Shown here in pieces: positions 4,854-22,314 of a stretch of 22,314 bases of DNA. The notes under the pieces were generated by a model that worked only from the letters and a program-made list of their open reading frames with translations, did no database searches and was not told the origin of the DNA. A program made the translations under genes and the position numbers. Within the stretch, counting starts at the first letter, position 1, and each line of letters begins with the position of its first letter. Source of the stretch: a virus; the IMG/VR virus record IMGVR_UViG_3300035698_003502, positions 1-22,314 of that record, one strand, 5' to 3'.

Positions 4854-5308
4854 TACATATCCTCTAGGACGATTAAGGGGATTTCATGTAGGTTTCGGCG
4901 ATGGGCCTCCTCTACGTGAGCAGCAGAAACCACGATCACCTCTGTCAAGGGCTGCTCAAAGAACTCAGAGGTGGACATAGCCACCCAGCGATACATTGAA
5001 AAGCTTCTCCCACCGATCTTCCGGTTCATATAGGCAAGACGATCCGGGTTTGGGTCGGTGCAGTAGATGCATTCCACTGTAGGATCTTTCCACAGGGTTT
5101 CAATCAGGGCCTCTGTAAACTCATCGATACCATAGATGGCGTGGGCGTTCATCTCGGAGAACAACCTAGCGTATTGTAGCTTAGCATCATCAGGGTGAGG
5201 CCGGAGCTTTACCTTCTGTCGGTTACCCTTGATAACTGGAGGGGGTTTCTTCTTGTTGGAGGACCCCTTGGGACGGCCTCGACCCCGTTTTTTCTCAGGC
5301 TCTTCCAT
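4853..5308 (-). CDS. AT-hook containing hypothetical protein
   Basis: A 151-residue protein whose N-terminus carries an AT-hook-like basic motif, KKRGRGRPKGSSNKKK (residues 6-21). The RGRPKG core typically inserts into the minor groove of AT-rich DNA. The rest (about 40-151) is an ordinary folded domain with FTEALIETLWKDPTVECIYC and a C-terminal block (EVIVVSAAHVEEAHRRNL) that I do not recognise. Nucleoid or genome binding is a reasonable guess from the motif. The gene starts where the glutaredoxin gene ends. Confidence 0.65.
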   Translation of the reverse strand: MEEPEKKRGRGRPKGSSNKKKPPPVIKGNRQKVKLRPHPDDAKLQYARLFSEMNAHAIYGIDEFTEALIETLWKDPTVECIYCTDPNPDRLAYMNRKIGGRSFSMYRWVAMSTSEFFEQPLTEVIVVSAAHVEEAHRRNLHEIPLIVLEDM

Positions 5309-5885: not shown

Positions 5886-6053
5886 TCACCCCTCCAACTC
5901 AGAGGTAATTACGCGCCAGTAGGAGTTGTCTTCGTCTTCGCGATTTTTGGATTCTTCGGCGGCGGCTTTCCATGCCCCCTTTTTTGTAAGGTAGGCACTC
6001 CAAGGGAGACCGTTGTAATCAAGTAAAATATAGACATTAGGTTGATCGCTCAT
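5886..6053 (-). CDS. small hypothetical protein, 55 aa
   Basis: An ORF starting MSDQPNVYILLDYNGLPWSA with a perfect AAGGAG 6 bases before the ATG, so expression is likely. The middle encodes EESKNREDED. The DNA for this piece recurs almost exactly in the gene at 21068-21463 (see the repeat entries). No known domain is recognised. It is the first gene after the ribonucleotide reductase. Confidence 0.7.
   Translation of the reverse strand: MSDQPNVYILLDYNGLPWSAYLTKKGAWKAAAEESKNREDEDNSYWRVITSELEG
5928..5958. repeat. 31-base dispersed repeat, copy 1
   Basis: Identical to 21410-21440 except for one base. Both copies are read in the same frame as EESK(N/K)REDED, in genes that are otherwise unalike. 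Confidence 0.8.
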
Positions 6054-6079: not shown

Positions 6080-7951
6080 TTATAGAATGTCGCAGCCACC
6101 CCCGACACAAGCCAGGGTCTGAGAGCCTTCTGTGTTATCTTCCTTCTCGTAGTCAGACAACTTGGAGAAGTCGATAGTTGGCATCTTAGCTAGAGCAGCC
6201 TCGTACTGTTCTTCTGAGATTGGGTCGTAAGGTGGTTGCTCATAGGTATGCTCAGAGTATGGCAAGAAAGAGATACCTGTGATGTAGTCAAAGTTCTGAT
6301 ACACCCAGTCACCAACCATAAGCCACTCATGCTCCTTGACGTAGATCGTGACAGAAACAGAGTGCTCAGACCAGTGCTTCTGGAAGAGCAGCCAGTTCTC
6401 CAACTGTTCAATTGCTGTTTGACCTCCAGCCTTGACAGACCCCCTTGGGGCCTTGATAGGGAAGTAGAACACAGTAGTTTTCTCTGGGGCAGTAATATCA
6501 GGCTCGTTTGGGACACCTTGATCTTTCATCATCTGCGTTAGAGGGTCCATGCTGGATTGTCGCACTGAGCGGATGTAGAAGTCAGAGAAGCGCCCGTGGA
6601 TACCAGAGGAAGAGTTTACTTTCTGAGAGACCGTACCAGAAGGCTTGATTGTTGTGACAGCTGCTGCTGGGTTGATACCTAGTTTGGCTGCGTAAAGCTC
6701 ATTTGTATCGATTGCTTGGAGCTTGAGCACTTCAAGAAGTTCTTCTGTTGGCTTCTGGAGCAGGGGGTTATCCTGAATGCCTGTTAGGGAAACGCCAAGT
6801 AGGGCTTCTTCCTCACAGTTACGTTGCCAAAGCTTACGGACGTAGGGGAAGTTCGTGAGGGTAGCTTGTAGAGTACCCAAGATAGCCGCCAGTCGTACTT
6901 TGCGAAGGAGGTCTTCCTTGGTGTCACCTTCTCTAGCAATCGCCTCTGATAGGTTACAGAGTTCCCCGTGTCTCAGAACGATTTCTGCACAAGGGTTTGT
7001 TCCCATAAGTAGGTCAGAATTACGACGTGCCGGGGCCATAGTGCGGGCACCTTGTCGGTTGTAGATACCTCGTTCACCGGAACCAGACTTCATCAAGGAA
7101 ACCCATTCTTCCATGAATTGTGCCATAGAAGGCTTCTGGTCATAGACTGCGGAGTTATTTGACAGGGCGCGGTGAGGGGCAATCTTCCACCACATACCTG
7201 ACTTGCAGTCACGGATTTCTGGGTCGGTGAGGTCTGAGAGGCTGATGAGAGCAGAGCGCCGGACACCGCCTACAACAACAATCTCTGCAATCTTACAGAC
7301 GATGTCGTGAACTTCTTGAGTGGTAAGTTTACGTCCTGCTGCCGACTTGAATACTAGTGTAAGGTAAGCAAAAAGATCCATAAGTGGTTTCGGACCAGAA
7401 GCTCGTCCACCCATAGTCTTAAGTCGAGAACCCTCGGGTCGTATCTTAGAGTAGTCCCATTCATGTACATTTCCTAAGTAAAGATCAGCGATAAGCTTAC
7501 GGAGGGCCTTGGCCCAACCTTCAGAAGAGTCCCCAATGGAGATTACTCGCTCTGACTTAGTGAAGTTATCGTTGATGATTGGTAGTTTGTTGACGTGTTG
7601 AGCCTCTGCCGAGAAACCAACCCCTGTTCCTGCCATGAGGATAAATAGAATCTCATCGAAGACTCGGGGGTTATCTACCACAGCAAAGCTACAGTTATAG
7701 CCTCGGAAGTGGTTCTGGGATAGCGCTGGTCCAGCAGCCCAGAGAGACCGCATGGAGGGCATCACTTCATGGTTGTATACGGCGTCATAGAGTTCGACCC
7801 AAAGGGAGTTGGGGAGGTTTTTGTCTTTAGTCTCCCCTTTCCAGAAGTCAATAAGTCGTGTCACAGTTTCCGCCCAAGTCTCTCGGCGACCTAGCTCAGG
7901 TATGAAGCGAGAGTAACGAGAGAGGTGGATGAAAGTTTGATAGTTGTCCAT
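6080..7951 (-). CDS. nrdJ: class II (cobalamin-dependent) ribonucleotide reductase
   Basis: Makes deoxyribonucleotides from ribonucleotides using adenosylcobalamin, so it needs no iron-tyrosyl subunit and works with or without oxygen. The sequence has 623 residues. Features visible: Cys87 in YNCSF and Cys332 in ELCNLSE (the reducible pair), Asn319-Pro-Cys321-Ala-Glu323 (thiyl-radical Cys with Asn/Glu), GVRRSALISLSD (229-240), KPSGTVS in the C-terminal half, and Cys615/Cys620 (CVGGGC) near the end for re-reduction. The C-x4-C tail and length fit the monomeric RTPR type. No nrdB-like gene is nearby. AAGGAAG precedes the ATG by 7 bases. A glutaredoxin gene three genes downstream is the probable electron donor. 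The host must supply or import B12. Confidence 0.95.
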   Translation of the reverse strand: MDNYQTFIHLSRYSRFIPELGRRETWAETVTRLIDFWKGETKDKNLPNSLWVELYDAVYNHEVMPSMRSLWAAGPALSQNHFRGYNCSFAVVDNPRVFDEILFILMAGTGVGFSAEAQHVNKLPIINDNFTKSERVISIGDSSEGWAKALRKLIADLYLGNVHEWDYSKIRPEGSRLKTMGGRASGPKPLMDLFAYLTLVFKSAAGRKLTTQEVHDIVCKIAEIVVVGGVRRSALISLSDLTDPEIRDCKSGMWWKIAPHRALSNNSAVYDQKPSMAQFMEEWVSLMKSGSGERGIYNRQGARTMAPARRNSDLLMGTNPCAEIVLRHGELCNLSEAIAREGDTKEDLLRKVRLAAILGTLQATLTNFPYVRKLWQRNCEEEALLGVSLTGIQDNPLLQKPTEELLEVLKLQAIDTNELYAAKLGINPAAAVTTIKPSGTVSQKVNSSSGIHGRFSDFYIRSVRQSSMDPLTQMMKDQGVPNEPDITAPEKTTVFYFPIKAPRGSVKAGGQTAIEQLENWLLFQKHWSEHSVSVTIYVKEHEWLMVGDWVYQNFDYITGISFLPYSEHTYEQPPYDPISEEQYEAALAKMPTIDFSKLSDYEKEDNTEGSQTLACVGGGCDIL

Positions 7952-8644: not shown

Positions 8645-10372
8645 TTAAAAGTCGATTGCGTCAATTTCTTCATCTGTTATATCCATTGTTGTTGCCTTGA
8701 AACCACCTAGACTCTCATCTTTAGCAAAGAGTCTTCCGGTGTCGTGGTCATAACCTAAAGAGCCAGAAGGCCCGGTCAAACCTGTGTAGCGGCACTTAAG
8801 TACCTTTGTTGTGATCTTGTTTCGTTCACCCTCGTCCACCGCACCAGCATCTCTGGCAAAGGCAATAACATCCATACTGATCTGTTTGATAGAACCAGAA
8901 CCACGAATATCGTCTAGGGAGGGTAGTTTACCTTCCTCAAAGGACTTACCCTTGTTGTCTGTCTTTCGGAGGTGGGAGATTAGCCCCAACCAGATCTCAT
9001 GCTTCTTGACCAGCCGTAGCAGGTCATTCATAATACGATCCGTAGCCTCGTTACCAGTGAGACCCTCAGCACCTTCTGAGACAAGAATTGTGATGTGATC
9101 TAGAAAGAGGTACTTGACACCTTTCAGGGCCATGAACTCCAGGTGGTCAATGATAGAGCCATCCGCCAGGGAGCCGTGGTGATCAAGCACCATCACCCTG
9201 TCATCACCAAAGACCTTCTCGAAGCTGTCAATCTCTTCTTCCTCTGTCAGAGGTGTCTCAGTGACGTTCTTTTTGCTTTCCATCCCTAGAAGCTTACTTA
9301 CTGTCTCTGCTGGAGACTCCTCTAAACTAAGGATACCCACCTTTGAATCGGTGGTGTGGAGCAGGTGAAGCACAATCTCTCTTAGAATGGTACTCTTGCC
9401 GCTACCTGTCCCCGAGGTCCACAAGGTGATCTCACCAAACCTCATACCCTTGAGCTTCTGGTTGATACCTTCCATAAAGGGCGGGTACGGAACAGATTCA
9501 ATTGTCTTGTAGGCTTGGTACTTCTCCCAGAGGGCATCCTTGGTGAGGATACCAGCGGGGGTGTACTCCGAGGCATTCCACACAGCTTGTTGGACAGCGG
9601 CTGGCTCCTTGATCCAAAGATCAGAAGCATCCTTCTCAGAAGCCTTGACTACCTTACAGATGTCATAGCCAATGATCTTTGCTGCCTCTTTCATGGCAAC
9701 TTCACCAGCGTCGTCTTTGTCCATCCAAAGGATGATCTCTTTGTACTGCTTCCTCAGGTCTTCTCGTATGTCAACGAGGTCACCTGTCATAGTTGCTGAA
9801 CGCAAGGACATCACAGGGTAGAACTTCTTGTACTTCTTCCAAATGGCGGTGGCAACAGCCAGGGTGTCTTCCTCCCCTTCTGTAATGATCAACTTTAGAC
9901 CACCTGAGAAGAGATTGTAACCGAAGAGTCCTGTCACAGTGCCGATACAACCCTTGGACTTGAAGTCCTTTGGCATAACCCGCACCTTGTAGCCTTTTGG
10001 CCTCCCTTCAAAGTAGTTGTAGGGGTAGTACTTCTCATTGACGTTACCGTGGGTGTCGTAGGCTACCTTGACGCCATAGAACTCATAGACCTCTTTTGGA
10101 ACCTTACGTTTAGCATCCGAGGTGGAGACATAACTGTCCGTCACGGTATCGACTAGCTTAACGTAGTCAACCCAAGCACCCTTGTTAGTATTGGAGGAGA
10201 CCGCTTCAAACTCGGCCTCTAGTTCTTCTTCTTCTGTCATAGCGCCCTTCTTTCTTATGGTGGGTTTTAAACAACCTGGGGAAAAGCAGTAGGAGTGGCC
10301 ATCTTCGTAGACAGCACGGTTGTCACTACTTCCACAGAACTCACAGGCGATGTGCTCAACTATTCTTGACAT
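8645..10372 (-). CDS. T7 gp4-like DNA primase-helicase
   Basis: A bifunctional replisome protein of 575 residues, close to T7 gp4 (566). Domains in order: an N-terminal zinc finger (Cys10, Cys13, Cys29, Cys34) for template recognition; a TOPRIM primase core with Glu165 (TEGEED) and Asp218/Asp220 (WMDKDD); a linker; then a RecA-type helicase with Walker A GTGSGKST (321-328), EES (351-353), Walker B-like LFLDH (Asp425) and SHLRK (466-470). The acidic C-terminus (ITDEEIDAIDF) matches the T7 tail that contacts the polymerase. The start overlaps the end of the GIY-YIG gene by 17 bases, so its ribosome site (GGAG 10 bases upstream) lies inside that gene. Confidence 0.95.
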   Translation of the reverse strand: MSRIVEHIACEFCGSSDNRAVYEDGHSYCFSPGCLKPTIRKKGAMTEEEELEAEFEAVSSNTNKGAWVDYVKLVDTVTDSYVSTSDAKRKVPKEVYEFYGVKVAYDTHGNVNEKYYPYNYFEGRPKGYKVRVMPKDFKSKGCIGTVTGLFGYNLFSGGLKLIITEGEEDTLAVATAIWKKYKKFYPVMSLRSATMTGDLVDIREDLRKQYKEIILWMDKDDAGEVAMKEAAKIIGYDICKVVKASEKDASDLWIKEPAAVQQAVWNASEYTPAGILTKDALWEKYQAYKTIESVPYPPFMEGINQKLKGMRFGEITLWTSGTGSGKSTILREIVLHLLHTTDSKVGILSLEESPAETVSKLLGMESKKNVTETPLTEEEEIDSFEKVFGDDRVMVLDHHGSLADGSIIDHLEFMALKGVKYLFLDHITILVSEGAEGLTGNEATDRIMNDLLRLVKKHEIWLGLISHLRKTDNKGKSFEEGKLPSLDDIRGSGSIKQISMDVIAFARDAGAVDEGERNKITTKVLKCRYTGLTGPSGSLGYDHDTGRLFAKDESLGGFKATTMDITDEEIDAIDF

Positions 10373-11135
10373 TTTCTAGATACTCCGCCTGCCATCCGTA
10401 GATAGTCTTCTTTTCGCCCCTAGCAACCCTAGCAACAGAATCGTGGGCACATCCAATATACTTTGCCGCTTCTTTTGAATTGTTGAAGAGGTGCTGTTCA
10501 TCTGCTTTGGTGATGATGATAGGTTTCTTACCCGGACCCCAGTACTTAGGGTCCAGACCCCCGGGAATTAGGTTATCCCGAAGGTTGGGGTTACTAGCGG
10601 GTTTTCCTACTAACCAAGAACCTTGGTTTGGATTTCTCATATGGGCTTCGCTCATTTTCTGCCTAGTTTCTTCAGTATGGAACTCCTTAGTAATCCAACG
10701 GATTGCTGCAATGTGACCATTCAGGAAAAGACGTTCATCAGTGTCACCTAGCTTACTAGTAAGGCAGTCACACTTTGTTTGCCACTCAATTTCAGCTGCG
10801 TTTAGCCCACCTCGTGTATTGTAGTACTCAAGGATGTGAAAGTTAAAGGTTTCAATACCTTCTCTCTCTATAAGCTCTTTTACATGTTTGCTACTACCTC
10901 TGTAAGTGCGCCAAGGGGTTTCCTTACCATAGAGCTTACCCTTCCTTTTACCCCCATGAACAGTTTGCTTACGCCCAATGTAAAGTTTTCCTGTCGTAGT
11001 ACTTTCTATACAATAAACAAAACCAAATGTTTTTTTCGGGTTTATATGGGAGAGTGCGGGTGGAACAAGCCAATGGCCAAGGTTATCGCCTTTTTCGGTG
11101 TTACTAATTACTTCATACAGATATGCAAGATTCAT
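10356..11135 (-). CDS. GIY-YIG homing endonuclease
   Basis: Free-standing site-specific endonuclease likely to spread itself into related phage genomes. The 259-residue form starts at the ATG at 11135, with GAAGGA upstream. An upstream ATC-rich extension to 11165 lies inside the exonuclease gene. The catalytic domain has F-GFVYCIES (38-45) and KLYIGRK (50-56), the two GIY-YIG halves, then an Arg-rich helix and Glu115 region (LNAAEIEWQT). A NUMOD3-like HTEETRQKMSEAHM (153-166) and a C-terminal NUMOD1/HTH-like part (NNSKEAAKYIG...VARVARGEKKTIYGW) would bind DNA. It is wedged between the exonuclease and primase-helicase genes, overlapping both. Confidence 0.9.
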   Translation of the reverse strand: MNLAYLYEVISNTEKGDNLGHWLVPPALSHINPKKTFGFVYCIESTTTGKLYIGRKQTVHGGKRKGKLYGKETPWRTYRGSSKHVKELIEREGIETFNFHILEYYNTRGGLNAAEIEWQTKCDCLTSKLGDTDERLFLNGHIAAIRWITKEFHTEETRQKMSEAHMRNPNQGSWLVGKPASNPNLRDNLIPGGLDPKYWGPGKKPIIITKADEQHLFNNSKEAAKYIGCAHDSVARVARGEKKTIYGWQAEYLENVKNS

Positions 11136-11964
11136 ACTTATCCTTCGCAATCTTAAAATGGTCATCCTTAAAACGCCAAAGGTGGATTAGACGTCCATTA
11201 AAAACCATGTGATCGTAACCTTCTTCACCGTAGGCTTTACTATAAGCACGACATACAGCAGCTTCGTATTCTTCTCGTGTGGTAAGTCCCTCTAAATGCT
11301 TCGCAGCGGTCTTTGGGCCACAACCTTTTATACCTGGTATCTGGTCAACATTGTCACCCATTAACAACTGGTACCAGTAAAACCACTCTGCGTACTCTGG
11401 TGTCACTTCATACTTGTGAGCATGTTTGGTAGGGTGGATGTTGACAAAGTGCCAACCATCAATACAGTCAAGGTCCTTATCAATAGAACAAATGACATAC
11501 TCCTTACCGGTAAGCTTACACTCGTTAGACCAGATACGGATTAGATCATCCGCTTCACAGCCCTCAGAAATAACAGCACCCTCGCGGTCAGCAAGGTAGT
11601 CTTGGAGCTTGGGGAACCAAGAAGGTTTATTGCTCTGTACTGTTGTTCGTGCTGAGTTGATCTTGTAGTCGGGGTGGATGTCTTTACGGAAGTTAGTAGG
11701 ACCTCCTACAGCCATTGCCCAGTCATCAGCAAAAACAGACTCGATTGTGTCCTTCAAGAGCTTGTCGAGGTTCTTTTTAGCTTTGTTGAACCCTGTTGTC
11801 TCAAAGGAATGGGCAGCTGCTACCACTTGTCGATCATACTTCTCTTGATCGTAATCCCCTTTATCAAGTTTGTCCTTAAGGCGCTTTAGGTACTTGTTGT
11901 AGGTGATGTTCACATGCCAAGAAGCTTGGTAGGTAAACGGATCACCATCAATTAGTGCGATCAT
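11113..11964 (-). CDS. T7 gp6-like 5'-3' exonuclease (FEN family)
   Basis: Exonuclease of the 5'-nuclease superfamily, 283 residues (T7 gp6 has 300). In T7-like phages it degrades host DNA and removes RNA primers. Metal-binding acids are visible: Asp6/Asp8 (IDGDP), EADD in the middle, SIDKDLD, and then the helix-three-turn-helix block MGDNVDQIPGIKGCGPKTA. The promoter at 11986-12010 starts a transcript 29 bases before the ATG, and AGAGGA gives a good ribosome site. It is thus the first gene of its transcription unit. Confidence 0.93.
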   Translation of the reverse strand: MIALIDGDPFTYQASWHVNITYNKYLKRLKDKLDKGDYDQEKYDRQVVAAAHSFETTGFNKAKKNLDKLLKDTIESVFADDWAMAVGGPTNFRKDIHPDYKINSARTTVQSNKPSWFPKLQDYLADREGAVISEGCEADDLIRIWSNECKLTGKEYVICSIDKDLDCIDGWHFVNIHPTKHAHKYEVTPEYAEWFYWYQLLMGDNVDQIPGIKGCGPKTAAKHLEGLTTREEYEAAVCRAYSKAYGEEGYDHMVFNGRLIHLWRFKDDHFKIAKDKYESCISV

Positions 11965-13381: not shown

Positions 13382-14710
13382 TTAATGTACCTCATAGTAG
13401 TTTTTTCCAATTTTACAATCACCACAAACCATGTGGTAGATCCCGTATCTTTTCGGCGCTTCAATGAAGCACTCCATTATAATCTCCTTGGCACGTTCAG
13501 CTTGTTCTTCAGGGAGTTCGTAAGTGACTTCATCGTGGTAGAACAACAATAACTTGAAGTCAAGACCCTCTTCTTTGAGGCGTTTGTCAATCATCAGCAC
13601 AGTGGCCTTCATCACCACACTTTCAGCGCCTTGGATCAAGTAGTTGAGAGCCTTGTGTTTTGTATCGCAGTAGATTGGTCTCCCATCCAGACCATAAATT
13701 AATCCGGCAAACTCCACGTCAGCTTGGGTATCTTTGATAAGAGCATCTAACTTGGGGTACGCGGCTTGGAAGTGGGCCTTGAGTTTGCTACCGAGTGTAT
13801 CCTTGATCCCCAAGATGCGCGCCATCTTTGGCCCACCAGCGCCGTAGAGGAAGGCAAAGATAAAGGGTTTCGCAAGGGAACGCTCAACAGCTGCGTGGTC
13901 TATACCTGAGGCCTTCCTTACAGCAGCGGTAAGGATGTCAGCATTCTTCTGGTGGACATCCCCATCAAGCACCTCTTTGGTGAAGGAAGGGTCCTCCATG
14001 AAGTGAGCAAGGAGTCTTAGCTGGCACCCTGCTGAGTCTGCTGAAACCAGAACCCGCCCTGGAGGAGTGATGAAGAGCGATCGGAACTCCTCACCGAGGG
14101 TGGCCTTACCCGATGGTAGGTTGGCAATGATCTTGTGGGTCTGTCTGAAGGTGGGGGTGCCGATGTTAAAGACATCCCCGTGGAGCCGACCCTCGTCATC
14201 AATGTGATCAAACCAGCCCTGTAGGATGGACCTTCGAGAACGCAGGGTGTAGTACTCCGTTAGAATACGACCCACTTCCCCTAGTGGTTCCAGTGAGCTA
14301 TCGCTGAGCTTGGCAGAGGTCTTTCCGAGTCGTCCTGTCTTAGGGTCTCTCTTCCAGTTCCACTCATCGGGTTTCCAACCGATTTTAGCCAAGTACTGCT
14401 TAACCGTATCAGTGTTGCCAATATCACCATCAGCAAACTCAACCCTACAAAAGCCCAAAGACTCCCTGAAGAAAGGGCTAGAATCAACAGTGGTGTCATC
14501 AGGAAGGCCAAACCAATTGATAAGGTGTCTATTAAGTCCCCCTGCCTTCGTGTAAGTCGGTATCTTGACCGTACCATAGCGTTTTCCTGTAGTTGGTTCG
14601 TAGTCAGTTTTAGTGTCGGGGTCATAAACAATTGCTTTGGCGCTGAGAAGGGGGTTCACAAAGTCAGAGAACTCTTTTAGCTTCTCTTCAACTTTGTGGA
14701 CGAGTTCCAC
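13382..14710 (-). CDS. DNA polymerase family A, polymerase domain (split gene)
   Basis: Palm, fingers and thumb of a T7-type replicative DNA polymerase, 442 residues from a GTG with AGGGAGG 5 bases upstream. Motif A is VSADSAG (Asp225). Motif B has Arg277, Lys281, Phe285 and Tyr289 in R-LAKPFIFAFLYGAG. Motif C is YHDEV (His392, Asp393, Glu394). Phe285 sits at the position of E. coli Pol I Phe762 (Tyr526 in T7). The frame stays open upstream to 14779 and encodes AEQSENGWLFDREAA, which matches the T7 segment joining the exonuclease and polymerase domains. That segment is in a different frame from the exonuclease gene, so either a -1 shift, a mutation or two separate proteins must be assumed. 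Confidence 0.92.
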   Translation of the reverse strand: MELVHKVEEKLKEFSDFVNPLLSAKAIVYDPDTKTDYEPTTGKRYGTVKIPTYTKAGGLNRHLINWFGLPDDTTVDSSPFFRESLGFCRVEFADGDIGNTDTVKQYLAKIGWKPDEWNWKRDPKTGRLGKTSAKLSDSSLEPLGEVGRILTEYYTLRSRRSILQGWFDHIDDEGRLHGDVFNIGTPTFRQTHKIIANLPSGKATLGEEFRSLFITPPGRVLVSADSAGCQLRLLAHFMEDPSFTKEVLDGDVHQKNADILTAAVRKASGIDHAAVERSLAKPFIFAFLYGAGGPKMARILGIKDTLGSKLKAHFQAAYPKLDALIKDTQADVEFAGLIYGLDGRPIYCDTKHKALNYLIQGAESVVMKATVLMIDKRLKEEGLDFKLLLFYHDEVTYELPEEQAERAKEIIMECFIEAPKRYGIYHMVCGDCKIGKNYYEVH

Positions 14711-14779
14711 TGCCGCCTCCCTGTCAAAGAGCCAACCATTTTCAGACTGTTCCGCCCAAGGTAGTCCATCATGGTTTCG
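14677..14779 (-). other. frame overlap between DNA polymerase halves
   Basis: Between the TGA of the polymerase frame (14780-14782) and the TAA of the exonuclease frame (14677-14679) both frames are open. Homology with T7 polymerase moves from the exonuclease frame (MMDYL) to the -1 frame (AEQSENG) near 14755-14760, around CTT GGG CGG. No canonical X-XXY-YYZ slippery heptamer is present. Confidence 0.75.
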
Positions 14780-15363
14780 TCAGCTATAGCATCACCCACC
14801 CTCTTTTGCCCAGTATTCTTGACGTACTTACGGAATTCAGCTAAGAGGAACCTATAGACAAGAGAACCCAACCTAACATCCTGCTTCATGTAGTCCCACA
14901 TCTCTGGGTTGAAGTTCTCAAAACCCCCTGTGTAGTCTCCCTTATAGAAGGTACCAACCAATAGGCCGTACTTCTCCTTCTCTCCGGGGGTCTTTGCTTC
15001 ACGGTAGTTTCTCTCATTACGCTCCTCAAAGAACTGACCCCACTTGGCTAGAGAGTGTCCAAAACCAAAGCGTTTGAAGTTAAGGGTCTGGGACATGACC
15101 TTGGTACACCGGACCTTGGCCTTAGGTACCCAAACGTAGCCCAGGATTGACAAGGCGAGCTTCTGCATAGCAGGGATATCATAATCGTTAGCGTTGTGCG
15201 CTATGATGCCCTCTGCTGTGTCTAGGAAGTCCAAGAACTCCCGTAGCTGGTGGCTCTTGAACCAGTACTCCTTCCCTGTACCTATGTCAATAGCCCCTGC
15301 ACAGTGGAACTTAGTTACATTTCTTAGAAGGTTGTCATTCTCTGTGTCAAAGACTAGGTTCAT
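14677..15363 (-). CDS. DNA polymerase family A, 3'-5' exonuclease domain (split gene)
   Basis: Proofreading domain of the T7-type DNA polymerase. The start MNLVFDTENDNLL aligns with T7 gp5 (MIVSDIEANALL), so I prefer the ATG at 15363 over 15378; both have ribosome sites. Exo I is FDTE (Asp6, Glu8), Exo II AHNANDYDIP and Exo III MKQDVRLG. VTKFHC also matches T7. The last 25 or so residues (GRNSLKMVGSLTGRRQW...) are out of the homologous frame and look like read-through of the wrong frame. A complete protein would need to join the downstream polymerase ORF. The start overlaps the DUF3310 gene's stop. Confidence 0.9.
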   Translation of the reverse strand: MNLVFDTENDNLLRNVTKFHCAGAIDIGTGKEYWFKSHQLREFLDFLDTAEGIIAHNANDYDIPAMQKLALSILGYVWVPKAKVRCTKVMSQTLNFKRFGFGHSLAKWGQFFEERNERNYREAKTPGEKEKYGLLVGTFYKGDYTGGFENFNPEMWDYMKQDVRLGSLVYRFLLAEFRKYVKNTGQKRVGDAIADETMMDYLGRNSLKMVGSLTGRRQWNSSTKLKRS

Positions 15364-15877
15364 ACTTCCCCTTTTCATACTCCTCTAAGAAAGCTATGGC
15401 TTCTTGAACTGCAACGTAAGCTGCATCAAGATCTTCACTACCATCAGGTAGCCCTTCCAGAATTGCCTCCCCTATCCTGAGGTCCTTCACTAGCTCCTCA
15501 ATGGGGTCTAAAGTCTCAACCCTGGCCCCACCGCCTTCTTGGAAGTCCCCACGGGGTTTCTCCTTCCGGAGACCCCGCTCAAACTCAATCTCCTCAACCA
15601 AGCGGTTCCCATACCAAGCAATCTTTGTGGCGTCCTGTAGAGCGTCATCCTTCCCACCTAAGCGGAAAGAATACTTAAACACCTGGCCCAGAACGTGGGA
15701 TACGACACCGTTATGCCGTGCCAGAGCATACCGCATCAGATCCATGTATTCCATACCCTTAAGGAGGAACAGAGCCATGACTTCTGGGCCAAGAATCTTG
15801 TAGTGTTTTGGGTTGATTACTGCGTCTTGTTCTTCAGGTGTTAGGGTGCTGAAGTCACCATGGAAGTTATCTGTCAT
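15347..15877 (-). CDS. DUF3310-like protein, possible nucleotide kinase relative
   Basis: A 176-residue protein. The first part has INPKHYKI...GMEYMDLMRYAL and VLGQVFKYSFRLGGKDDALQDATKIAWYGNRLVEE (about residues 62-96), the DUF3310 layout (NPxHYk, then a KY-wR-G-K---L-Dl-Ka-wY block). T7 gp1.7, a nucleotide (dTMP) kinase, also carries such a domain. The C-terminal third (about 100-176) is an acidic helical extension. It lies directly upstream of the DNA polymerase. A role in dNTP supply is plausible but unproven. Confidence 0.8.
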   Translation of the reverse strand: MTDNFHGDFSTLTPEEQDAVINPKHYKILGPEVMALFLLKGMEYMDLMRYALARHNGVVSHVLGQVFKYSFRLGGKDDALQDATKIAWYGNRLVEEIEFERGLRKEKPRGDFQEGGGARVETLDPIEELVKDLRIGEAILEGLPDGSEDLDAAYVAVQEAIAFLEEYEKGKYEPSL

Positions 15878-19633: not shown

Positions 19634-19661
19634 AAAAAGGAGAACCCCTTACAGGTTCTCC
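19634..19661 (-). terminator. Rho-independent terminator
   Basis: On the minus strand a perfect 8-pair stem GGAGAACC / GGTTCTCC with a 7-base loop is followed by TTTTT. The 5' arm is the last coding part of the HNH gene, and its TAA stop lies in the loop. It closes the ssDNA-binding protein unit. Confidence 0.88.
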
Positions 19662-20095
19662 AGTTGTTTTCGTTTGTTTACCCTACCTTTCGTAGTAGGA
19701 CTGTCCTCACCAGTTCGACACCTACAATAAGCAGTAAAGGCGGGATGGTTCAGGTTTTCTTTTTGGGTGCCCCACTTCAAGTTCTCTGGTGTGTTATTCT
19801 CAACATTGCTGTCGATGTGTATAACAACAGACTCGTTAAAAGGAGGAAGCCCGTGGAAAGCCAAACAAACCATACGGTGTATCCTGACGGTTCCTGTATC
19901 TTTATATCTCATACCAAGAACGTAGTAGTTCTTACCCTTGTACTGTTTGGTGCCATAGATGGGTTTAGTCTTGTAAGAACGCACCCCTCCGTTTGGGAGA
20001 GGTACGCCTTCTTTTGGATCTTTCCAGATTCTACCCCAAGACGATGCTCTGATGGGTAGACCGGGAACCTGCCGCCATTCTTCAATGGTTCTCAT
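19649..20095 (-). CDS. HNH homing endonuclease
   Basis: A 148-residue endonuclease. The N-terminal NUMOD4-like part (EEWRQVPGLPIRASSWGRIW) is followed by the HNH_3 core: RIHRMVCLAFHG (71-82) and VIHIDSNVENNTPENLKWGT (90-109), where H-D-N-N-L-W are the usual metal and fold residues. The usual Asn before the His is Ile here, which might reduce activity. It sits 12 bases after the ssDNA-binding gene, as many phage homing genes sit beside replication genes. Its last codons form one arm of the terminator. Confidence 0.88.
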   Translation of the reverse strand: MRTIEEWRQVPGLPIRASSWGRIWKDPKEGVPLPNGGVRSYKTKPIYGTKQYKGKNYYVLGMRYKDTGTVRIHRMVCLAFHGLPPFNESVVIHIDSNVENNTPENLKWGTQKENLNHPAFTAYCRCRTGEDSPTTKGRVNKRKQLENL

Positions 20096-21071: not shown

Positions 21072-21463
21072 AGGAAGTCTAACATAGAAGTTTCTTCATC
21101 GCAGTCAAAAGTGGAGTTGTAGAAAGAAATCATCACGGACTGCATGTAGCTGGTCATATCATAACCCCTGTCATGGTCTTGGACGATGTGCTCCAGGTTA
21201 TCACTGAAGTAGAGAGAAGTACCATCTGGCCAACAATCGCCCCCTGTTATCCAGCAGTCTTTTATAGGAGGTCTCTCAGGGGAGCCTTCGTAGGGGGGTT
21301 TGGGGTGGTGCATCTCAACACCTCCTATAAACTCACGTTCACCGTATCTTTGACCCCAAATGTGAACAGCCCCTTTATCACCTTTCAGAGTCCAGACGTA
21401 GCATACCTCGTCTTCGTCTTCGCGCTTTTTGGATTCTTCGTAGCCGAATTCAAAGTTTGACAT
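21068..21463 (-). CDS. hypothetical protein, 131 aa
   Basis: Starts MSNFEFGYEESKKREDEDEV with AAGGAAG about 8 bases upstream, followed by VCYVWTLKGDKGAVHIWG and a Pro/Gly-rich centre (HHPKPPYEGSPERPP). It is rich in aromatic and acidic residues. The EESKKREDED piece is encoded by DNA almost identical to 5928-5958. I recognise no family, though the WTLKGDKGAVHIWG beta pair suggests a small all-beta protein. Confidence 0.68.
   Translation of the reverse strand: MSNFEFGYEESKKREDEDEVCYVWTLKGDKGAVHIWGQRYGEREFIGGVEMHHPKPPYEGSPERPPIKDCWITGGDCWPDGTSLYFSDNLEHIVQDHDRGYDMTSYMQSVMISFYNSTFDCDEETSMLDFL
21410..21440. repeat. 31-base dispersed repeat, copy 2
   Basis: 30 of 31 bases agree with 5928-5958. 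It is read in the same frame as that copy, encoding EESKKREDED. Confidence 0.8.
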
Positions 21464-21593: not shown

Positions 21594-22256
21594 TTAGGCA
21601 AAGGCGAAGTCTGACTTGAGTATTTCTCTAACATCTAGTGTTCCTTTGTTAGGTAAAAGGTCTAAGGCATCGACCTGTGCAAAGATGTACTCAAGAGGTT
21701 CACTCTCATACAACTCAACGAAGGTTTCTCTGACAAAGCCAAATAAGTGACCCATGTTCCCAGCGTGACAACCAAAGGAATCGTGGACCACAGTAATAGA
21801 GTAGTCTGACCCATCAACCACCATGTTTACATGGGTGGCGTCTAGGTTGTGAACAACGTTAGGGGAAGTGCCTGTCTTCTGTTTTTGCTTGTCTAAGGTG
21901 GCTTCTTGCCAAACACTCAGAGAGAGCCTAATGCGGTCTTCCCCATAGTAGAAGCTGACGTCACTTATGAGGGGTCTTCTGTAGTTGTGTCGGAAGGGAA
22001 ACCCTGTGATAGGAGTCCTGTACGCTAGGTGCCTCCCTCTGTCATTCTCTCGCTGAGCTAGTTGTTGGAACAGCTGGAGCATCTTGGCAGGACCTCCAAG
22101 CTCCTTGTAGCAGATATCGTACACTAGGCTACCAAGCATGTAACCCCACTTAGGCTCCTTGTCTCGGAGGTAGTCACTGAGTCCACGGGTGTCTTCCACC
22201 ACCTGTTCCCCCATACCTTGCCGAGTACCCCCGTAAGCTAGTGTCATAACGTTCAT
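21594..22256 (-). CDS. T7-type RNA polymerase, C-terminal part (3' exon or fragment)
   Basis: Catalytic C-terminal part of the single-subunit phage RNA polymerase that would transcribe the phage genes. It matches T7 RNA polymerase from about residue 633 to the end: MTLAYGG (motif B, Tyr639), NVVHNLDATH (His784 equivalent at residue 142), VHDSFG (motif C, Asp812 equivalent at residue 159) and the FAFA foot. The N-terminal domain and motif A are absent. The frame begins exactly inside motif B, where T7 reads KR-VMTLAYG. Here the bases before AACGTTATG encode no KR and an in-frame TGA stands 4 codons upstream, so an intron or homing endonuclease insertion is likely. The ATG at 22256 has no ribosome site and is probably not a real start. 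The true exon probably begins about 22253. Confidence 0.9.
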   Translation of the reverse strand: MNVMTLAYGGTRQGMGEQVVEDTRGLSDYLRDKEPKWGYMLGSLVYDICYKELGGPAKMLQLFQQLAQRENDRGRHLAYRTPITGFPFRHNYRRPLISDVSFYYGEDRIRLSLSVWQEATLDKQKQKTGTSPNVVHNLDATHVNMVVDGSDYSITVVHDSFGCHAGNMGHLFGFVRETFVELYESEPLEYIFAQVDALDLLPNKGTLDVREILKSDFAFA

Positions 22257-22262
22257 TTGTAT

Positions 22263-22314
22263 TCAACCAAGTTCGTTAGTCTTGGCCCGATTAGAACCGC
22301 GCAAATTTGATTCC
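22263..22314 (-). other. partial ORF / 3' end of insertion in RNA polymerase gene
   Basis: The last bases before the RNA polymerase part hold an open frame ending LRGSNRAKTNELG-stop (TGA at 22263-22265) and a hairpin (CCAAG / CTTGG, 22267-22285). This could be the end of a homing endonuclease ORF plus the 3' end of a group I intron (P9-like hairpin, terminal G at 22254). The sequence stops here, so the intron core cannot be checked. Confidence 0.4.

Follow-up and report, generated by a model that had tools for sequence, protein, structure and literature searches.

The locus and the RNA polymerase fragment at its edge

The window, by which we mean the whole stretch of DNA analysed, is an entire IMG/VR record of 22,314 bp that lacks terminal repeats and has nearly all its genes on the minus strand. 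It carries a T7-like replication block (RNA polymerase fragment, DNA polymerase, 5'-3' exonuclease, and primase-helicase) and also encodes a class II ribonucleotide reductase. The nearest cultured relative of this phage is Roseobacter phage DSS3_VP1 (Naomviridae, Noahvirus), which has the other replication genes in the same order and whose RNA polymerase is 55% identical to that of the window over the same 219 residues. Two homing endonuclease genes of the window appear to be free-standing: a SegE-type GIY-YIG gene between the exonuclease and primase-helicase genes (10356-11165, minus strand) and an HNH_3 gene (19649-20095, minus strand). They are possible partners for collaborative homing.

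The RNA polymerase gene lies at the contig edge. Its open reading frame runs from 22256 to 21594 on the minus strand (220 aa), and residues 2-194 match positions 162-367 of the Pfam RNA_pol profile (PF00940, E 3e-25). The match begins only at profile position 162, and about 510 N-terminal residues are therefore absent. What is left is the 3' exon of a T7-family single-subunit RNA polymerase (21594-22253, minus strand; 219 codons from NVMTLAYGG to the stop), which keeps the end of motif B (NVMTLAYGG) and motif C (VVHDSFG), as single-subunit enzymes of the T7 type do. It is matched by 78 relatives, with up to 79% amino acid identity. The comparison with the closest of them (L002) gives a pN of 0.14 against a pS of 0.80, with synonymous sites saturated, which indicates purifying selection.

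The break in this gene is sharp. The polymerase alignment runs uninterrupted through ...RKTVKR-NVMTL(A/G)YGG in 79 of the 83 related loci, and L002 (79% amino acid identity) reads RKTVKR-NVMTLAYGG, unbroken. At the junction in the window, which reads ...GGTTGAATACAAATG^AACGTTATGACACTAGCTTACGGG on the minus strand, the homology goes no further than the first base of the AAC codon for Asn, and 61 nt remain to the contig edge. The interruption therefore falls precisely at KR-NVMTL, on a codon boundary, a sharp junction of the kind expected of a group I intron. A first-pass annotation of this DNA had described an abrupt start of homology at NVMTLAYG, which the 79 continuous relatives and the profile match from position 162 bear out. 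It had also reported that CAA ATG replaces the Lys-Arg codons, with a TGA four codons upstream, and that the ATG lacks a ribosome site. The codons 5' of the exon do read TGA ATA CAA ATG in the polymerase frame, and a Shine-Dalgarno sequence is absent before the ATG. As a start codon this ATG is implausible; the intron ends with these three bases.

A frameshift or sequence error in a continuous polymerase gene would have a precedent in the same record, where the DNA polymerase gene is broken by one. Yet nothing like ...DKKIWRKTVKR occurs in any frame of the 61-nt tail, including its three forward frames. With no polymerase-like coding in this stretch, a simple sequencing error is no explanation, and we give this reading practically no weight, as it is refuted within the visible 61 nt. 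The interruption at this exact point seems peculiar to the window. A scan of the viral collection for family genes with a non-Arg codon at the same position gave seven chance matches, all outside RNA polymerase, so the window alone shows an insertion at KR^N. A tblastn search across motif B for split polymerase genes in phage records matched five records, all of them unsplit.

We also searched IMG/VR for the missing 5' exon with the 5' half of L002. This returned 21 loci; those examined either run on across the junction or stop before it, and a contig ending at KR was not among them. The 3' exon might accordingly come from a dead or rearranged polymerase copy, in which intron and exon are present and a functional 5' exon is absent upstream; that the 5' exon lies off the record, and that this search found no contig ending in ...KR, would both fit. 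We consider such an origin very unlikely because the exon is intact over its 219 codons, evolves under the constraint given above, keeps motif C, and sits in its usual gene context. Furthermore, two relatives with complete data (L036 and L071, described below) have both exons of an interrupted polymerase gene, and these are collinear.

A 36-nt element at the 3' end of the insert

The record shows just 61 nt of the insert and lacks the P3-P8 core, the 5' splice site, and the 5' exon. Rfam searches of the whole window and of its last 415 nt gave no group I match, as expected when the core lies off the contig. The final base of the insert is a G at 22254 that directly precedes the AAC codon, the terminal G of group I introns. 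The 36 nt that end on this base (22254-22289, minus strand) make up a group I intron 3'-terminal element. It consists of CGG, a 6-bp hairpin GCCAAG-ACTAACGAA-CTTGGT (22266-22286, minus strand; stem 22286-22281 with 22271-22266, loop 22280-22272), and the tail TGAATACAAATG with the terminal G. Judged by its position, the hairpin may be of the P9.1/P9.2 type. The last visible 25 nt (22290-22314, minus strand) reach the contig edge and hold neither P7/P9-like sequence nor an Rfam match. An exact search for the tail in IMG/VR returned no matches, and neither the tail nor its peptides had a significant BLAST match in the related records. Folded alone, the tail does no better than shuffled sequences (z 0.29), so the case for the intron stands on homology and covariation, not on stability.

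The homology appeared in a sensitive BLAST of the contig end against phage records, which matched 31 nt of Mammaliicoccus phage phi116 at 87% identity (E 0.2, weak when taken alone). The match stops at the junction of the window and lies in unannotated DNA between two pieces of nrdF, where Rfam places a group I core (66 bits). The phi116 exons rejoin as RDESI-HGVYIG, and the BLAST match ends exactly on the last base of the intron. The 3' termini of the two introns are almost alike (CCTAACGAACTTAATTGAATAAAAATG^ in phi116 vs ACTAACGAACTTGGTTGAATACAAATG^ in the window), although the phi116 intron sits in another host gene and another phage group and is compact, without an endonuclease. The nrdF gene that it interrupts (L108, PV389079.1 20629-21964) had been deposited as two separate subunit CDS.

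We then looked for the element by pattern. A strict pattern recovered only an intron in a capsid gene (L109/L110, 109 bits). A looser one (AAGNCTAACGAACTTNNTTGAA) brought up seven IMG/VR loci and had no match in 257 Gb of contigs from bacteria and archaea. In six of these loci the element sits where a group I match has its 3' end (L109 and L110, 109 bits each; L114, 91.5; L115, 57.1; L112, 43.7; and L113, 25.5, the last two correctly placed though under the Rfam cut-off of 50 bits); in the seventh (L111), the sequence starts 44 nt upstream of the element. A BLAST of the intron end of L113 against phage records gave Pseudomonas phage matches in tape-measure and hypothetical genes (E 4), which we rejected as chance. 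The element terminates phage group I introns in nrdF, capsid, ribonucleotide reductase, DNA polymerase, and terminase genes. Its common form is 36-37 nt long: CGR, a stem with a 9-nt loop (NCUAACGAA), and a tail UUGAAU...G that ends at the splice site.

The variable pairs of the stem (columns 16/34 and 17/33 of alignment A1) are standard pairs in all eight sequences, with three pair types each. The search pattern had N at both outer pairs and so did not select for their covariation; none of 500 shuffles reached their covariation score. The window agrees with the other introns in features that were not used to fetch them: the CGR, the two covarying outer pairs, and the terminal G 13 nt after the start of TTGAA.

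Blind tests of the terminal element

From seven introns, with the window excluded, we built a covariance model, R1. It scores 51.3 bits in the window (E 7.1e-12) from 22289 to 22254, ending one base before the exon; six of its seven introns had been fetched by a partly window-derived pattern, so this score is not fully independent, while the blind tests that follow are. The best R1 match away from intron ends reached 13.6 bits in 792 kb.

In the polymerase-bearing relative L071 (IMG/VR 3300034072_000514), R1 gave a blind match at 4965-5000 (36 bits), and the polymerase homology begins at base 5001. Rfam, run afterwards, found a 71-bit core upstream of this match. A search with RF00028, which does not depend on R1, identified seven introns in 13 polymerase-bearing relatives, the one in L071 included. 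R1 marks the 3' end of six of these seven (27-47 bits in four, 24 and 19 in two), which makes the terminus a regular feature of group I introns in the phage lineage of the window. Among the six is an intron in the large terminase gene of DSS3_VP1 (31.5 bits), with R1 ending at ...AAACG^ATCATGGCT, where exon 2 (IMASVIGAVRGN) has its first codon. This cultured relative shares the terminal element at the edge of exon 2 with the window but differs in that its large terminase gene is interrupted and its polymerase gene is intact. As a practical matter, R1 can reveal a group I intron whose core is lost beyond the contig end, using no more than the final 36 bases.

Two records met in these tests deserve mention in their own right. 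A group I intron that carries an ORF splits the large terminase gene of DSS3_VP1 (L124, MN602266.1 4390-6410), and the locus was deposited as two 'putative terminase large subunit' CDS plus a hypothetical protein. The 79-kb contig IMGVR_UViG_3300034072_000514 has four group I matches (L071, L119, L122, and L123), including those in the RNA polymerase gene and in a DNA-polymerase-like gene.

The abundance of such introns, several per genome in this lineage as in the 79-kb relative, gives some room for an assembly chimera, in which the last 61 nt would belong to the intron of another gene or phage and be misjoined to the polymerase exon; misjoins are also favoured at contig ends. But such a join would have to hit the exact base where a 3' splice site meets the codon boundary of the exon. 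An assembly misjoin normally requires a k-mer common to both sides, which is lacking between the intron end and the exon start. We regard a chimera as very improbable, and about equally improbable is the insertion of something other than a group I intron (a free-standing homing endonuclease gene, a group II intron, an IStron, or an intein). The two apparently free-standing endonuclease genes of the window lend this some credit, against which the terminal element is of the group I type, as R1 finds. Two of these candidates were rejected directly. Group II introns end in AY, after domain VI, and the insert ends in ...AAATG (UG); an intein is contradicted by the lack of in-frame coding through the insertion, with a TGA four codons upstream.

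Homology and covariation establish that the polymerase gene of the window is interrupted by the 3' end of a predicted group I intron, homologous to Rfam-confirmed introns and abutting exon 2 exactly. The first-pass annotation had proposed a group I intron with its terminal G at 22254, or a homing endonuclease insertion. The first part is upheld by a 36-nt element that matches known intron 3' ends and ends on that very base; the endonuclease part is likely but weaker, with 16 codons in view.

A probable endonuclease of the intron

These 16 codons and a stop (ESNLRGSNRAKTNELG and the TGA; 22263-22313, minus strand) form the probable end of an intron-encoded homing endonuclease. The open frame overlaps the hairpin, with the same frame and the same TGA as in L114, whose GIY-YIG ORF (Pfam 1.7e-8) enters the terminal hairpin and stops at the hairpin TGA (...RAKSNELS and stop). 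The intron of DSS3_VP1 has the same order of core, ORF, and hairpin. The last seven codons in the window are forced by the conserved hairpin RNA; independent evidence comes from the nine preceding codons, which are open, and from the 25 nt upstream of the hairpin, which lack the P9 helix of a compact intron. On these grounds the intron of the window probably encodes an endonuclease ORF, though with clearly less assurance than we attach to the intron itself. ORFs that overlap intron structure are already known (PMC3073962).

Motif B is a repeated target of group I introns

The polymerase family has three intron sites within 45 nt, all in or adjoining motif B, of which that of the window is KR^N. 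The second site is found in L035-L037 (IMG/VR 3300037336_000061, 3300022859_000059, and 3300023429_000057), which share with the window the polymerase family, motif B, and the terminal hairpin (R1 39 bits, with their terminus among the seven of the model). Their intron, complete in L036, lies six codons (18 nt) beyond the window site, at CTGGGT^TACGGC, and unlike that of the window has a degraded endonuclease, with a stop codon inside the terminal hairpin. The intron core of L036 scores 74 bits with Rfam, and by inspection its P1 (ACUGGGU/GCCCAGU) pairs the U of the 5' exon with G. The third site is that of L071, where the intron interrupts the same gene and is complete, with its R1 match at the exact exon edge, but is inserted fifteen codons (45 nt) beyond the window site, at GGCATGGGT^CAACAAGTG. 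Its P1 (CAUGGGU/GCUCAUG) again pairs the 5' exon U with G by inspection, and an intact 182-aa ORF of HNH appearance lies between core and hairpin.

Since introns of relatives occupy two further points of motif B, this motif is repeatedly targeted: the catalytic motif B of phage RNA polymerase is a recurrent target of group I introns. Among the 83 loci, in some of which the first half of the gene is truncated, insertions elsewhere in the polymerase gene were not found. By inspection only, the introns of L113, L117, and L122 end just before what appear to be motif-B-like exons (YGAG/FGGG) of DNA-polymerase-like genes.

The three motif B sites agree with the view that introns persist at places where the gene would not survive imprecise loss and the endonuclease has its most conserved target (PMC2988022), the reason argued in that work for the preference of introns for essential motifs. 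The group I introns of phage DNA polymerase genes, which occupy several functionally important sites (PhiI/W31, Pf-WMP3, SPO1, phiL7; PMC3428280), are the closest known systems. Like the window, where splicing is predicted, they combine a self-splicing class of intron, often an HNH endonuclease, and a conserved stretch of an essential polymerase (PMC3428280); the host gene in the window is instead a single-subunit RNA polymerase. The place of the endonuclease gene differs too: it is in P6a in Pf-WMP3, PhiI, and W31 and apparently just before the terminal hairpin in the window.

Predicted splicing and its consequences

The evidence from the sequence makes it very probable that a group I intron splits the RNA polymerase gene of this marine phage between the Arg and Asn of motif B (KR^NVMTLAYG). 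The catalytic core of the intron, P3-P8 with a G-binding P7 such as the introns of the relatives have, and the 5' exon would lie just beyond the contig edge. In the first of the two transesterifications of splicing, an exogenous G would attack after a 5' exon U paired in P1; in the second, as in other members of the family, exon 1 would attack after the terminal G at 22254 and rejoin KR to NVMTLAYG. The probable intron-encoded homing endonuclease would cut the conserved motif B DNA and so let the intron spread into intronless alleles.

The insertion site corresponds to what we take to be R632/S633 of T7 RNA polymerase, adjoining K631 and seven residues before Y639. Without splicing the gene would yield no active polymerase, and transcription by this enzyme would thus depend on splicing. 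As the intron is in the enzyme that drives phage transcription, splicing is a possible control point. That motif B is a recurrent landing site in marine phages and also the seat of a splicing switch that delays or gates transcription, with the intron kept partly for regulation as well as by homing, seems to us unlikely; a regulatory role of splicing as such a switch is speculative.

Among phage genes, DNA polymerase, nrd, td, terminase, and others are known to host group I introns. In the open-access literature that we searched, no such intron is reported for the single-subunit RNA polymerase gene of a phage. What is new here is the host gene, the insertion site, and the occurrence of three sites close together in motif B; the element itself is of a known kind.

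Other features of the window

The ribonucleotide reductase of the window (6080-7951, minus strand) is of the B12-dependent class II type, and in its place in the gene order DSS3_VP1 has separate alpha and beta reductase subunits. The DNA polymerase (13382-15378, minus strand) is spread over two frames, with the exonuclease part at 15354-14764 and the polymerase part at 14755-13382 in another frame; both align to a single gene of DSS3_VP1, and the two-frame state is either a sequencing error or a natural split. Finally, a 31-nt coding stretch at 5928-5958 is repeated with 97% identity at 21410-21440, 15 kb apart. Both copies encode an ESK(N/K)REDED peptide, in two small genes that are otherwise different.
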